A stretch of 64,000 nt of DNA from Deltaproteobacteria bacterium (GTDB lineage Bacteria > Desulfobacterota > Desulfarculia > JACQYL01), in assembly GCA_016208165.1 (NCBI GenBank), contig JACQYL010000098.1, forward strand, positions 28,697 through 92,696, read 5' to 3'. The translations under genes were made by a program, and so were the position numbers. The notes under the pieces are model-generated. The model was not told the origin of the DNA, did not search any database, and saw only the letters and a list, made by a program, of their open reading frames with translations. Below are positions 33,836-48,683 of this stretch, one piece after another (the first letter of the stretch is position 1; every line of letters starts with the position of its first letter).

Positions 33836-35740
33836 ATGAAACACATTATTCTCGGCACCGCCGGGCACATCGACCACGGTAAGACCGCTCTGATCAAAGA
33901 GCTTACCGGCACGGACACCGACCGGCTCAAGGAGGAGAAACTTCGAGGCATTACCATCGAACTCGGTTTTGCCAGCCTTACTCTTCCCTCCGGCCAGAGC
34001 CTCGGCATCATAGATGTTCCCGGGCACGAGCGATTCGTAAAAAACATGGTCGCGGGAGCCTCGACCATAGACATTGTCGCTCTGGTCATAGCCGCCGATG
34101 AAGGGGTTATGCCTCAAACCAGAGAACATCTGGAAATATGCCAACTGCTTCAAGTAAAAATGGGTCTGGTCGTACTCACCAAGATCGACATGGTGGACAA
34201 GGACTGGCTGGAACTGGTGACGGAAGACGTGAGGGACTTTCTTCAGGGAACGTTTCTGGAAGACGCCCCCATCATGCCGGTCTCGTCCATAACACGAGAA
34301 GGGTACGACCGACTCGTCGATGAATTGGACAGGCTCTCCGCAGCCACGAAGGAAAAAACCCGCGTCGGCGTGTATCGACTTCCCATCGACCGCGTGTTCA
34401 CCATGAAGGGATTCGGCACTGTGGTGACCGGCACCTCCGTCAGCGGCACCATCAGTCTGGGCGACCCGATTACCATCTATCCCGAAGGCGTCGAAACGAA
34501 GATCAGAGGCCTTCAGGTGCATAGCCAGGAAGTGGAGCAAGCCAGTGCGGGGCTGCGCACCGCAATTAACCTGCAGGGTGTTGAGAAGGAAGCCATTTTC
34601 CGGGGCGATGTTTTGGCTTCAGCGGATTCACTGGTGGTGACGAAACGCGTGGATGTCTATCTCAGCCTGCTAAAAAGCATGCCCCGCCCGCTGAAAAACC
34701 GAACCCGAATGCGGTTTCACACGGGCACTGCCGAAATCCTGGCGGAAGTGACGTTGTTGGATCGCGACGAAGCGCGACCCGGAGATACCATCTACGCCCA
34801 ACTGCACCTGGAAAGTCCCACGGCCATCCTGCCTCACGACAGGTATGTGGTTCGATCCTATTCCCCCGTGCATACCATCGGTGGGGGGGAGATCCTCGCT
34901 GTTTCACCACCGAAACACAAACGGGGCCGTCAGGATGTTCTGGCACGGCTTGAAATCTTCAAACAGGGGGCGCCGGCCGAGTTCGTCTCGGCGCTGATCG
35001 AACAGGGCGGCATCGCAGGGCTTTCACGGAGCGATCTGGCTCGAATGACGCCGTTTACAAGGAATGTCCTGGACGCATCTCTCCAGCAGCTTCAGTCCGA
35101 CCGGACGGTGCTGCAATTCACGAAAGAGCCTCCCAGCTATGTCCACGCGAAAGTCTTCAACGAAATGAGGACGAAGGTCGTTGAATTGCTGGAACAATAT
35201 CACCAGCGTTATCCCCTGCGGGTCGGCATGAACAAAGAGGAACTCCGTTCCCAATTACCTTACGCCGACGTCAAGCTTTTCAATTTCTTGCTGGCGGCGC
35301 TGACCAAGGAAGGAGCCATCAGGGGGGAGCAGGAGGAAGTTCATCTTTCCAGCCATAAGGTGCTGCTGAAGGAAGAGGAACAGGAATTTCGACGGAAGCT
35401 CGAGGACACTTACCTGAAGGCAGGTTTGACGCCGCCGTACTTCAAAGACCTGCAGGACAAAATCCCAGCCGACGTGATGAAGGAGGTTCTTAGCCACCTG
35501 CTTGCGGCAAAAGTGCTGATCAAGGTGAAAGAGGGCCTGTATTTCCATCAGAAGCCGCTGGCGGAATTGCAGGACAAGCTGGTGGAATATCTGCAAACGC
35601 ACGGAGAGATGTCTACCCCGGAGTTCAAGGACATGACCGGTGTGTCCCGAAAGTACACCATTCCTCTGTTCGAATATTTCGACAGCCAGCAGGTCACGAT
35701 GAGAGTCGGCGAGAAGCGGGTATTGAGGACGAGAAAGTAG
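33836..35740 (+). CDS. selB: Selenocysteine-specific translation elongation factor
   Basis: 634 residues. The EF-Tu-like G domain reads [20 protein letters not shown] at the start, [25 protein letters not shown] and LTKIDM. Domains II/III ([20 protein letters not shown]) follow, then a C-terminal array of winged helices from about residue 400 that in the family binds the SECIS hairpin of the mRNA. SelB delivers Sec-tRNA to UGA codons. Its presence supports reading the in-frame UGA codons in three other genes of this window as selenocysteine. selA, selD and the tRNA are not in the window. Confidence 0.95.
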
Positions 35741-38756: not shown

Positions 38757-40523
38757 CTATTGCTGGGACGCGGGTTCCTTCGCACCTAGCATACGACCCA
38801 GGAATGGAGCGGGCGGCAGAAAATCCACCAGGCGCAGATCGATGCGTTCATTTCCCCGGACATCCAAAAACACAATAGTGGGCACTCCTTTGACGCCGTA
38901 TTGCTTCAACAATCGTTCGTGATATGGATCGCCGCCCTTGGTCACATCCACTTTGATCATGGTAAAATCGTTTTCCGCCTGCCGGACCACATCGAGGTGG
39001 TGAAAAGTCACCTCTTCGAGTTCCCGGCATGGCGTGCACCAGTCGGCATAGAAATCGATGATCACCGGCTTCTCTTGAACTCTTGACTCCTCAAGAATCT
39101 GCTCCGAATAGGTCTGCCAAGCGATCCCCGGCCCCCGCATGGCCCAGGCGGCTATCCAGAAGGTCGCGAGGACGAGACAGGCCGTGCCCGCAATGGTTTT
39201 CAGCCACGGGAAAGCTCTAAAGCTCGCCTGGTTTTTATCGAGCCACCCCAAGTGTAGGCCGGCAGCCAGGGCCACAGCGACCGGCAGGCCGGTCTTCAAA
39301 ACTTCGGGCAGGACCGGCCGGATGAAGTAGGCCGCCATGCCTACCAGAACCCAGCCCATCAGTTTGCGCACCCACAGCATCCATCCCCCGGCCCGCGGCA
39401 GGCGCTGCAACTGACCGGAAAAGAGCGCCAGCACAAAAAGAGGTAGGCCCAAGCCCAGGCTGAGAATAAAAAAAATCAGAAAGCCAAGCCAGGGGTTGCC
39501 CATGCCGGCCACCCAAGCGAGCAGCCCCAGCACGAAGGGGCCGATGCAGGGGGCGGCCACGACGCCCAGAGTAAGCCCCATAAACAGACTACCGAAGTAA
39601 CCACTGTGGGATTTGCCGGCCATCCGGTTCAAGGCGCCGGGCAGGCGTAGCTCCCAGAGTCCGAAGAGGCTGGTGGCGAACAGAATCAGAACACCGGCGA
39701 CAAGGGCAAGTACGACCGGATTTTGCAGCATGGCGCCCATCAAACCACCGCTGAGCGCGGCCACCACGCCCAGGGTCGAGTTAGTCGTGGCCAGCCCCAT
39801 GACATAGCAGAGCCCATGCAAAACCAGCTTGATCTGCCCGGGCTTATCCTGAGATGTCCGCCCTCCGAAAAACGAGACCGTGATTGGAATCATGGGGTAG
39901 ACGCAAGGCGTCAGGTTTAGAGCCAGGCCGCCGGCGAAAATGCCGAGCAGGGTCCAGAGCATGGCCCAGCCCTGAAGCGATCGGCCGGCCGTCGGCCTGG
40001 CCGACGGATCGGCGGGCGCCGTCAGTCCCGCTGGGCTGCTTTTTATGGGTAGTCCCTGTTCCTGCCATTTCGGAAAACCGTAGGGGTCGCGGTAGACATC
40101 CTTATAACCAAGCGATACGGCCACACGGGCCGCCGAGTCGCTGCGGACTCAGGTCAAACCCGCTCAGTAAAACACGAGAGCGCGATCCTGGTCAGGCCCT
40201 AAAAAGTCCTTGAGTTCGTTCGCCTTACGCCAGCGTGCCCACCAAGTGGGTTCCATGGGAAAATTGACAGCGCCCTCGATATGCCCGGTGCGGTATTCCC
40301 ATTCCTGGCGCGTATCCACCAGCATCAGGCCGGTAGTCTCTTTCCTATACCGGTCGGCGAGATCTTCGGTGGAGATGATGCGGTAGCCGCCCGCTTCGGC
40401 CTCTGCCAGAACGTCATCCCAGGTAGCCTGCTTCGGCGCGAGGGGACGCCGCACGTACCAAACCAAAGCTACCGTTATCAGCACGGCCGCAAGCGCCAGG
40501 AGAAATGATGTCCATTTTTTCAT
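38757..40523 (-). CDS. Rhodanese-DsbD-thioredoxin fusion selenoprotein (Sec120, Sec125)
   Basis: 588 residues when two in-frame UGA codons (40166-40164 and 40151-40149) are read through. It has an N-terminal membrane anchor (3-24); a rhodanese domain (about 35-150) whose active-site loop reads VFY-U-AGLT-U-VRSD where homologues have YC...CxRS; a DsbD transmembrane domain with both intramembrane Cys (LNLTPCVYPMIP and VVAAPCIGPFVLG); and a C-terminal thioredoxin domain with YADWCTPCRELEEV. The frame is continuous on both sides of the UGAs. It probably moves electrons across the membrane and hands them to an outward thiol or persulfide partner. ATG 40523 has a GGAG site; the gene follows the trxB-like ORF by 28 bases. 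Confidence 0.82.
40118..40132 (-). promoter_or_regulatory. bSECIS hairpin of the rhodanese-DsbD gene
   Basis: CGGCC-CGUGU-GGCCG on the mRNA, a perfect 5-bp stem with G as second loop base, 16 bases after the second UGA and 31 after the first. It could serve both Sec codons. A second possible stem, GAGTC/GACTC, overlaps the second UGA. Confidence 0.6.
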
Positions 40524-40551: not shown

Positions 40552-41190
40552 TTACACTTTCGCGGACAGATCGGTGACGACCGAATTGAATATGAATTCA
40601 ATCCGAGGTTCTGAGAAAACACGCTGCTGGAGGATACGGCTGCCTCGAAAAGCATCACGACGATGGATGAGATAAGCTTTGCGGGTGATCTTTGAAAGGT
40701 AAAGGGCATCTTCTAACGCTGTATCTCCGCCTCCGACGACAGCCACTGTTTTCTCGCGGAAAAAGAAGCCATCGCATGTCGCGCAGTAGGAAACACCCTT
40801 GCCGAAGTTCTCGTTCTCACCGGGGACGTTCAGCCTCCGAGCGGTACCTCCGGCGGCCAGGATGACCGCATGGGCCTTCAATAGGGCGCCATCGGAAAGA
40901 CGCACCGAATGGTATTCGATCCCCGCCTCCGTTGCGATGGCTTCCTTCTCTACAATCTCGAGGTCATACCATTTGGCGTGCTGCAGGAACTTGTCGCAAA
41001 GATCGAGGCCACCGATCTCGATGAAACCGGGGTAATTCTCCACCTCCTTAGTAATGGCCACCTGCCCGCCAGGGACGCCCCTTTCGATCAACACGGTTCT
41101 AAGGGCTGCGCGCATGGCGTAGATCCCCGCCGTTAAACCTGCGGGCCCACCGCCTACAATGATTAAATCGAAAACCTCGTTTTCCGACAT
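40552..41190 (-). CDS. Thioredoxin-reductase-like protein, C-terminally truncated
   Basis: 212 residues against about 310 for TrxB. The FAD motif GGGPAGLTAGIYAMRA, the redox-active YCATCDGFFF and the NADPH motif VVGGGDTALEDALYL are all present. The protein stops at FNSVVTDLSAKV with a genuine TAA. The remaining C-terminal FAD-domain segment (normally holding GxFAAGD) is missing and not found nearby in another frame. It is the first gene of the redox operon, under a promoter with a large palindrome. Either a decayed gene, or a shortened electron donor that needs a partner; as it stands FAD binding should be impaired. Confidence 0.8.
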   Translation of the reverse strand: MSENEVFDLIIVGGGPAGLTAGIYAMRAALRTVLIERGVPGGQVAITKEVENYPGFIEIGGLDLCDKFLQHAKWYDLEIVEKEAIATEAGIEYHSVRLSDGALLKAHAVILAAGGTARRLNVPGENENFGKGVSYCATCDGFFFREKTVAVVGGGDTALEDALYLSKITRKAYLIHRRDAFRGSRILQQRVFSEPRIEFIFNSVVTDLSAKV

Positions 41191-45666: not shown

Positions 45667-45975
45667 TTACCTCGAATGATGCGGGCGGGGCGGCTCCGGC
45701 TCGATGACACAACAGCAGGACGAGGCGTCCCTTCCCAGGGCCGTGTTGATGACCGCATTGGCGCATCCTACTCCGGCCCGCACCCATATCGCCTCCACCG
45801 GGCAATTCTTGGAGCAGGCCCCGCATTCCATGCACGAATCCCGATCATCCACACGCGCCTTGCCATTGTCCATCGCCATGACCGCGTGCGGACACACGAT
45901 GGCGCACATGCCGCAGCCCACACATTTCTCGGGATAGTACTCGAGGGTCACTACGTTTCTGAGATACTCGGACAT
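45667..45975 (-). CDS. hgcB: Mercury methylation ferredoxin HgcB
   Basis: 102 residues. Two [4Fe-4S] motifs, KCVGCGMCAIVCPHAV and SCMECGACSKNCPVEA, are followed by a C-terminal tail with SSCCCVIEPEP. The vicinal Cys near the C-terminus is diagnostic of HgcB among small ferredoxins and is thought to carry Hg(II) to the corrinoid partner; three consecutive Cys is one more than the usual pair. It starts 10 bases after the hgcA stop on the same strand. HgcB reduces the HgcA corrinoid for methyl transfer to Hg(II). Confidence 0.93.
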   Translation of the reverse strand: MSEYLRNVVTLEYYPEKCVGCGMCAIVCPHAVMAMDNGKARVDDRDSCMECGACSKNCPVEAIWVRAGVGCANAVINTALGRDASSCCCVIEPEPPRPHHSR

Positions 45976-45985
45976 TCTTGGCTCC

Positions 45986-47170
45986 CTACATAAATCTCGA
46001 ACCGATCCACAGGCTCAGCCCTACCGCTGCTGCACCGATCTGCAGGGGCAAGGCCCACCGCATTTCCTTTTGTACGCCGGAAAGTGACGTGTACGTGGAA
46101 GCTCCGGTGAAATTCATCCCCAGAAACGACGCCAGGGCCGGAACCATCAGCAACCATCCCCCCAATTCGAGCACCGGGACCGCCGCCGCCAGGTGTCGGC
46201 GAAGGACCACCAATAGAACCGCCGCCGCCAGACCCACGATCATTCCCTTGGTGGAAAAGGCCCGGCCGGGCAGCCAGGGCAGCAGCAACGGCGTCAAAAC
46301 GGCGCCGGCCGCAACCGCTCCCAGAATGGCCCAAACCGCAAACAGACCGAACTCGAGCGCATTGGCCCAGTACGACCCCGGCCCGCCCAGACCGCCCAAA
46401 AAGAACATAACCGCGGCAGCCATGGCTCCGTATTTCACGGCATCCACCAGTTCCACCGGGATCAACACCGCGCGCTCCCGCAAGCCGAACGTCTTACGCC
46501 GCATCTCGGGCGTGGCTTTCATTCCCGCATCGAGAAACGCCTTGATGTCTTCGGCCCGGATAGGCCCGTAATGCGCCTTGAACCCGGTCTTCTTTTTCAA
46601 TGTATAAGCCGCCGTTCCGGGGCCCGCAAGCTGAGGCAGAATCAGGTCTCTGTGGTTGACCACGCTCGCCAGGGAAGAGGCTTCGATGCGAACCGCGATC
46701 TCTTCTTCGCAGAACGCGCCCTTGCCCGCCGCGCACCACACATTGATCCCGTCGGTGTCCAACACCAGCAGCCAGGCGTCTAACGACGGCAACGCCTTAC
46801 GCAGCCGATCGAAAGTCAATTTGTAATTCGCCGTGACCAGGACGGGCGACGAGGCGTCCGGTTCGTTCAATGCGTACAGCCCGGGATCCACTTTGTAGTG
46901 CATCCGTCCGACGCCCCATCGCGCCTTGAACGCACCCCACCAATCCGCCGACGCCCACTCGGAAACCACTTTGGGCGCCGTTCCCGCGCCGGTTCGGATG
47001 GTTCCAATCACAAAAGGTTGATCTACCCGAGGCGGACTCGACCGAGCCCGATTTCGGGTGGGTCAACACGACGAGCCGCCAGGAGCGGACGGCGCCGTGC
47101 TCCCCAGGCTTCCCAGCGGCTGCAACGGTACGGTCTGGAATCCTCCCGCTGCTTCATCCGGCTTGTTCAT
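45986..47170 (-). CDS. hgcA: Mercury methylation corrinoid protein HgcA, with in-frame UGA (Sec36)
   Basis: 394 residues if UGA at 47065-47063 is read as selenocysteine. The cap-helix motif NVWCAAGK (Cys146), unique to HgcA and the lower axial ligand of cobalt, is intact, followed by CdhD-like sequence and about five TM segments in the C-terminal 160 residues. The frame is open from ATG 47170, which has AAGGAGAT 8 bases upstream, through a Gly/Pro/Ser-rich leader to GGSSC-U-PTRN, then PPRVDQPFVIGTIRT, which belongs to the conserved HgcA N-terminus. The only in-frame alternative start, GTG 47011, lies inside that conserved part and lacks a ribosome site. It makes CH3Hg+ together with HgcB. Confidence 0.9.
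47033..47050 (-). promoter_or_regulatory. Candidate bSECIS hairpin in hgcA
   Basis: CGGGCUC-GGUC-GAGUCCG on the mRNA, a 7-bp stem with one G-U pair and a loop that starts GGU. It begins 12 bases after the UGA, with the apex at 19 bases, inside the bacterial SECIS range. A tighter CCCGA/TCGGG stem lies just upstream, too close to the UGA to serve. Confidence 0.6.
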
Positions 47171-47219
47171 TTGAGATGATCTCCTTGTAAGGTCGATCAC
47201 TATTGAAGAAGTGTTCTCC

Positions 47220-47815: not shown

Positions 47816-47885
47816 GGGATCTGCGATCCCGCGGCCGCCGGAGGCCCTATTTGACCTTGTGAATAGATCCCATGGAGGACCGTTC

Positions 47886-48683
47886 ATGCAGCGCTCATAC
47901 GATCATCTGGACACATTGAATCGACCCGAGATCACCATGTATTTGTTTTATCCGAGGCCGGACTCCGGCATGGAGCCCCCTCCCAAGTCCGAGGACCGCA
48001 TGATCCCCGTGGCGCCGGGCGTCGAGCTTTGGGCCCGCCGGCACGTATTGGACGCACCCAAAGCATATATACTGTTTTTTCATGGAAACGGCGAAATCGC
48101 CAGTGACTACGACGATCTGGGGCCCATCTTCAACCGGTTTGGACTGGATTTCACCGTTGTGGACTACAGGGGATACGGCCGGAGCAGCGGCCGTCCCACG
48201 CCCAGGGCCTTGGTGGAAGACGCCCTTCCCGCCTTCGAAGCCTGGTTGCAATGGATCGGCGGCGACGCCCGGCGGGCGCCGGCCATTGTCATGGGCCGGA
48301 GTCTGGGCAGCGCACCGGCGTTGGAGCTGGCGGACGCGGCGCCGGACCGGTTCGACGGCCTGATAATCGAAAGCGGCATGGCCTATACCGTGCCCTTGGT
48401 CAAGGCCCTGGGCGTGCCGGCGGATCGGTTGGGCATCACCGAAGCTCACGGCTTTCAGAACGCGGACAAGATCTCCCGATTTAGGAAACCCACCCTGGTC
48501 ATGCACGCGGAGTACGATCAACTGCTGCCTCTCAAGGTGGGACAGATCCTGCACGGCAAATGCGCCGCGGAAAACAAACGGCTCTACGTGGTGCCCGGAG
48601 CGGACCATAACGACATCTTTCTTCGTGCGGGTGCGGACTATTTTAAAAATATCGTAGAATTCATCGAGGAATTGCAGGAATAG
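47886..48683 (+). CDS. Alpha/beta hydrolase (ABHD-type serine hydrolase)
   Basis: 265 residues. YILFFHGNGEIASDYDDLG is the oxyanion strand, DYRGYGRSSGRPT the following loop, and VMGRSLGSAPALEL holds the nucleophile Ser in a GRSLG elbow. The acid is Asp in MHAEYDQLLPL and the His lies in VVPGADHNDIF. The family resembles FrsA/ABHD13-like hydrolases with no signal peptide, hence cytoplasmic. ATG 47886 has a GGAGG site. The substrate is unknown. Confidence 0.83.
   Translation: MQRSYDHLDTLNRPEITMYLFYPRPDSGMEPPPKSEDRMIPVAPGVELWARRHVLDAPKAYILFFHGNGEIASDYDDLGPIFNRFGLDFTVVDYRGYGRSSGRPTPRALVEDALPAFEAWLQWIGGDARRAPAIVMGRSLGSAPALELADAAPDRFDGLIIESGMAYTVPLVKALGVPADRLGITEAHGFQNADKISRFRKPTLVMHAEYDQLLPLKVGQILHGKCAAENKRLYVVPGADHNDIFLRAGADYFKNIVEFIEELQE

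Follow-up and report, generated by a model that had tools for sequence, protein, structure and literature searches.

A predicted Cys-selenocysteine tail in the mercury-methylation protein HgcA and its distribution among related loci

Methylmercury is produced by HgcA. In the window analysed here (a 64,000-nucleotide stretch of contig JACQYL010000098.1 from a Deltaproteobacteria bacterium), hgcA carries an in-frame UGA close to its start, which raises the question of whether this codon is read as selenocysteine (Sec) and, if so, what a Cys-Sec pair would do in a mercury methylator. A 2026 review (PMC13188914) includes HgcA among the selenoproteins, giving it one Sec and the motif CU and referring to Zhang et al. 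2008 (its ref. 61) and to Haft and Gwadz 2023 (its ref. 63), and PMC11588087 cites the latter, whose title concerns methylmercury biosynthesis, for possible selenoprotein homologues of hgcA and hgcB. Since a CU-motif HgcA is already in print, the statement in the first-pass annotation of this DNA that no Sec-containing HgcA had been described does not stand, and the window locus is a well-supported new example rather than a discovery. Compared by the review's listing, the window protein shares the HgcA profile and the CU motif with this selenoprotein (NF040863; Haft and Gwadz 2023, as given in PMC13188914) and showed no demonstrable difference from it. A word search of the main text of Zhang et al. 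2008 (PMC2398784) for corrinoid and acetyl-CoA terms gave no occurrence.

The hgcA reading frame and its UGA site among relatives

The hgcA gene occupied positions 45986-47170 of the minus strand (394 residues with the UGA read through). Behind an AAGGAG ribosome-binding site (47181-47186, minus strand, 10 nt ahead of the start), the frame opened with an ATG at 47170, ran for 35 codons to TGT (Cys35; 47066-47068, minus strand), reached TGA as codon 36 (47065-47063, minus strand) and continued with 358 HgcA residues, translated past the UGA as PTRNRARSSPPRVDQPFVIGTIRT and with the NVWCAAGK motif further on, all as the first-pass annotation had described. Its view that a start past the UGA would truncate the conserved domain also held: the first in-frame ATG, GTG or TTG behind the UGA was a GTG at codon 54 (47009-47011, minus strand), which interrupted the conserved core within the QPFV motif and lacked a purine-rich ribosome site within 18 nt upstream. 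Third-position GC fell from 0.71 in the tail to 0.47 over the 15 codons following the UGA and stood at 0.75 in the core. Between 47181 and 47860, approximately 0.7 kb 5' of hgcA and up to a divergent hydrolase-like gene (47859-48683), no gene was assigned.

The protein scored 444 bits against NF040863 (cut-off 275), matched PF03599 at residues 92-212, had an intact core past the tail in the HgcA alignment, carried the cap-helix cysteine that is invariant in this alignment (Cys146 in NVWCAAGK; 46733-46735, minus strand) and a predicted C-terminal membrane domain of five helices, and was adjoined by hgcB; on these family criteria it was assigned as a putative Hg(II) methylator. The NF040863 match began only at residue 66, and the NCBI HgcA model therefore leaves the tail uncovered. 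The hgcB gene, directly behind hgcA (45667-45975, minus strand; NF040864, 124.6 bits vs. a cut-off of 99), was the all-Cys form, with GVGC and a C-terminal CCC; the Sec-type GVGU form, under which HgcB is also listed as a selenoprotein in PMC13188914, was not encountered in the window.

N-terminal regions were compared across hgcA loci from genomes of the same class and phylum (395 genomes drawn) and from named genomes (the best 80 of 570 matches). After removal of 22 loci without a readable HgcA core, including five tRNA or selA loci and CODH-type matches, the 224 loci collected were reduced to 202, and removal of 13 near-copies left 189, window included; this sample is centred on the window HgcA, so the class shares below are not population frequencies. 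The first in-frame stop 5' of the core, exactly 60 codons before PGLY, was TGA in 56 of the 189 loci, TAA in one and TAG in none. By our own rule 71 loci were Sec-type: 57 with Cys directly before U (CU), 5 with the order UC and 9 with U but without an adjacent Cys. The other tails comprised 61 CC, 12 CxC, 12 with other Cys, 29 without tail Cys (a class set by a window rule, whose member L018 has CC closer to the core) and 4 cut or startless. Cys-Cys stood at or near the site in relatives, and the homologues lacking Cys or UGA there, which the first-pass annotation had named as evidence against a Sec residue, were present as well (the class of 29); they mean that the tail is not universal in the family, not that it is unreal in the window.

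Three loci (L110, L176 and L195) had a TGA near the site in a setting that was not Sec-type and were excluded from the Sec count. L143, in which CU is accompanied by another in-frame TGA, was classed as having no start; this second TGA lies in the linker (RPULDQP) and may indicate a decayed gene, an error or a second Sec. A variant tail, LTUATSC, was seen in L153, with Cys four residues past U.

The genome of the window is a draft of 142 contigs with 4.41% contamination, in which a nonsense mutation or a sequencing error might produce such a codon. This explanation was rejected as exceedingly improbable, because TGA was shared at the same codon by 56 loci, including the near-copies from Desulfacinum infernum DSM 9756 (L171) and D. 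hydrothermale DSM 13146 (L178), and the remainder of hgcA was intact.

The hairpin behind the UGA, the Sec machinery and the annotated starts

A SECIS-like hairpin was predicted at 47033-47050 of the minus strand (7 bp, GGUC loop at 47040-47043, -10.1 kcal/mol), its loop lying 19 nt past the UGA, where the first-pass annotation had placed it. In a bSECIS search downstream of the UGA, this hairpin fell within every limit of the strict rule (loop of 3-9 nt having a G among its first two, stem of 4-16 bp, spacing of 16-37 nt and MFE of -7.5 or below; PMC13188914, section 5). The strict rule was passed by 42 of the 71 Sec-type loci (29 failed), vs. 7 of 114 non-Sec loci scanned at the equivalent position and 318 of 3550 dinucleotide shuffles (9%). 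A relaxed hairpin rule, chosen after the strict-rule results were known, was passed by 67 of the 71 (4 failed), vs. 7 of the 114 non-Sec loci and 458 of 7100 shuffles. Scanned against Rfam at gathering thresholds, the window gave no match, an outcome of little weight.

The G083 family, with matches in 47 of 76 genomes, 30 loci fetched and 28 of them readable, provided the sharpest control for the hairpin. The codon was TGA in 24 of these loci, TGC in 3 and cut off in 1; the strict rule was passed by 21 of the 24 TGA loci, by none of the 3 TGC loci and by 133 of 1200 shuffles. Two loci of this family (L233 and L249) also occur in the main set, as L129 and L127. One of the 24 TGA loci (L227) encoded a protein identical over 328 residues to P0196, which is named by its source as Geobacter chapellei, now Pelotalea chapellei.

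Covariation was analysed in 41 of 51 loci, preselected for a hairpin loop after 18 or 19 nt with ten omitted, and the test is therefore biased towards structure: 80.5% of cells were paired, and 30 cells had changed on both sides, vs. a mean of 14.6 in shuffled alignments (0 of 500 as high). Of five measures on the same 41 loci, two were weaker: the number of pairs with two-sided change (6; 7 of 500 shuffles as high) and of further pair types (15; 68 of 500). Pairing fell to 47.7 and 54.7% when the hairpin alignment was shifted by one base, and a four-pair core was retained by RNAalifold in the 41-locus alignment.

The window genome encodes selA, selB, selD and a tRNA-Sec with UCA anticodon. 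The selB gene claimed nearby by the first-pass annotation was found at 33836-35740 of the plus strand (TIGR00475, 384 bits vs. a cut-off of 242), approximately 10 kb away. Among relatives, SelB scored over the cut-off in all 50 Sec genomes vs. 61 of 68 non-Sec genomes (Fisher p 0.02), a weak separation since nearly all genomes have SelB; one of the genomes scored as lacking it (G039) carried part of SelB where a contig ends (237.8 bits). With a UGA directly behind Cys35 and a SECIS-like hairpin following it, Sec insertion is predicted at the hgcA codon, has strong support from the relatives and is very probable on this sequence evidence; SelB and Sec-tRNA would place selenocysteine at the UGA.

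Two further UGA-containing genes had been claimed nearby, one of which was verified: tsoB (38757-40523, minus strand; NF045694, 990 bits vs. a cut-off of 805), a second selenoprotein gene with UGAs at 40164-40166 and 40149-40151. The other was not found, and a codon-usage scan of the whole window, a weak scan that missed hgcA too, revealed no second such gene. A thioredoxin-reductase-like frame at 40552-41190 of the minus strand covered only positions 2-204 of the 300 of TIGR01292 and terminated at a TAA immediately ahead of tsoB, so that a shortened reductase adjoins a selenoprotein gene. A plasmid search using the hgcA locus gave no match.

In databases the tail is easily missed, as annotation often appears to start the gene within the SECIS. 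Sixty-four of the best 120 database proteins started 52 residues before PGLY, only 34 of the best 120 had any Cys ahead of the core, and the HgcA of the window itself is recorded there with 337 residues. In L034 and L035 the codon at that start was the GTG at the hairpin loop (GGCTCAGGTGAGCC), and from these relatives the database starts appear to fall on GTG or TTG at the loop. Such starts past the UGA, together with the short record of the window protein, could be taken to mean that the UGA genuinely terminates a short leader peptide, with HgcA beginning downstream. However, the window has no GTG at the loop, and its first possible start is the GTG inside QPFV described above. The 12 codons ahead of the UGA were also constrained in frame, with a pN/pS of 0.55 in 13 close pairs vs. 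0.98 and 1.17 when the frame was shifted (0.43 from the UGA to the core and 0.19 in the core, in the same pairs). In addition, the stop codon was hardly ever TAA or TAG, and TGC replaced TGA in relatives. On these grounds the leader peptide was rejected as very improbable.

Mercury holding or redox function of the predicted tail

Hg(II) is bound more tightly by selenolates than by thiolates. In the AlphaFold2 model of the window HgcA, the core was confident and included five long helices (230-258, 267-299, 305-327, 333-357 and 363-393), and residues 1-40 had pLDDT values below 50; with this predicted disorder, the N-terminal tail is likely flexible. Foldseek and VIA-align matches for the model were the HgcAB model 9a0b and CFeSP. 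The CFeSP match spanned only HgcA residues 74-217, so that the tail and the membrane domain lie outside it; the CFeSP large subunit (2ycl, 4djd) is without the cap-helix Cys of HgcA, according to PMC7305189.

The tail resembles a feature of the partner protein. The C-terminal Cys pair of HgcB also consists of adjacent chalcogens on a disordered tail and is a proposed Hg(II) carrier: as given in PMC7305189, mutating both Cys cost 95% of activity, and the pair was proposed to deliver Hg(II). Unlike the HgcA tail, this pair belongs to the partner protein, lies at the opposite end and was Cys only among the HgcBs read. No TGA was present at the GVGC site in the HgcB tails listed for the 157 of 189 loci with a recognised HgcB (L082 reads X, and a few have GEGC or similar). 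That Sec in HgcA goes together with Sec in HgcB was rejected, no such link being visible in these 157 loci.

Given an HgcB-like disordered tail and the affinity of selenolates, the HgcA tail may be taken as a second mercury hand, in which the adjacent thiol and selenol would capture Hg(II) and the tail would pass it to the methyl-corrinoid, by analogy with the proposal for the HgcB pair. The Cys-Cys pairs in the tails of relatives likewise favour Hg(II) binding. We lean slightly towards this function of the Cys-Sec tail in holding mercury, and the reading as a whole, Sec at the UGA with a tail pair that binds Hg(II) and transfers it to the methyl-corrinoid, seems slightly more plausible than otherwise. 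The pair is not essential to the family, since by our rule tail Cys is missing from 29 of the 189 loci, and U stands without a neighbouring Cys in 9 Sec-type loci.

The main rival is a redox role, in which Sec is inserted and the Cys-Sec pair, instead of binding mercury, forms a selenenylsulfide whose task is to protect or reset either the corrinoid or the clusters of HgcB. Neighbouring Cys-Sec and Cys-Cys are widespread among redox selenoproteins, and the exact pairing in HgcA is loose, given the UC order in 5 loci and U alone in 9. The HgcA model, however, has no thioredoxin-like fold, and adjacent pairs on disordered tails recall the MerA C-terminus as well as the tail of HgcB, each of them linked to Hg(II) in PMC7305189. 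A redox function would thus be possible but somewhat doubtful.

The HgcA of Pseudodesulfovibrio mercurii ND132 has its cap-helix cysteine at Cys93, the counterpart of window Cys146, and a functional role of this residue is given in PMC7305189. Its 329-residue model (nine residues omitted) starts at residue 64 of the window protein, and its residue 1 corresponds approximately to residue 55 there; the numbering leaves no room for a tail, and the studied protein appears tail-less. ND132 HgcA methylates mercury in lysates (PMC11588087), which implies that the chemistry does not need the tail, whose part would be to tune capture.

Gain and loss of the site in the family

On a FastTree phylogeny of 183 HgcA cores, in which 57 of 180 inner branches were drawn open, the Sec label required 19 changes (10 of them forced by well-supported branches) vs. 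a mean of 56 for shuffled labels. The Sec codon was replaced by AGA behind Cys in L036 and L067, and by CGA in L168. None of the three passed the relaxed hairpin rule, stem remnants were present, and they look like possible recent losses of Sec; SelB over the cut-off was present in the L036 genome and absent from that of L067.

Hairpin-internal starts, repeated switching of the site and the apparent absence of the tail from ND132 HgcA were not found in the literature searched, to which the text of Haft and Gwadz 2023 did not belong. The family-level fact is already published, and the counts given here concern the frequency of the site within the sample and how often annotation starts past it. 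A broader reading would be that a mobile Cys-Sec hand is common in mercury-methylating Thermodesulfobacteriota, repeatedly lost and regained, hidden by SECIS-internal starts and absent from the ND132 protein that underlies HgcA biochemistry, so that selenium supply would help to set their methylmercury formation; taken as a whole, we consider this unlikely. Should many wild HgcAs carry a Cys-Sec tail that is cut off in databases, the profiles, structural models and expression constructs of HgcA are missing what is likely a mercury-binding element, and methylmercury formation may come partly under the control of selenium status.

The nearest HgcA to that of the window by tree path was L147, from a Desulfomonilaceae bacterium. 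The hgcA of G216, a genome from the phylum of the window genome, was a near-copy of that of Desulfacinum infernum. The cultured Desulfacinum differ at the site, with GGUCP in D. infernum (L171, a near-copy of L044) and RGUSP in D. hydrothermale (L178, a near-copy of L047).
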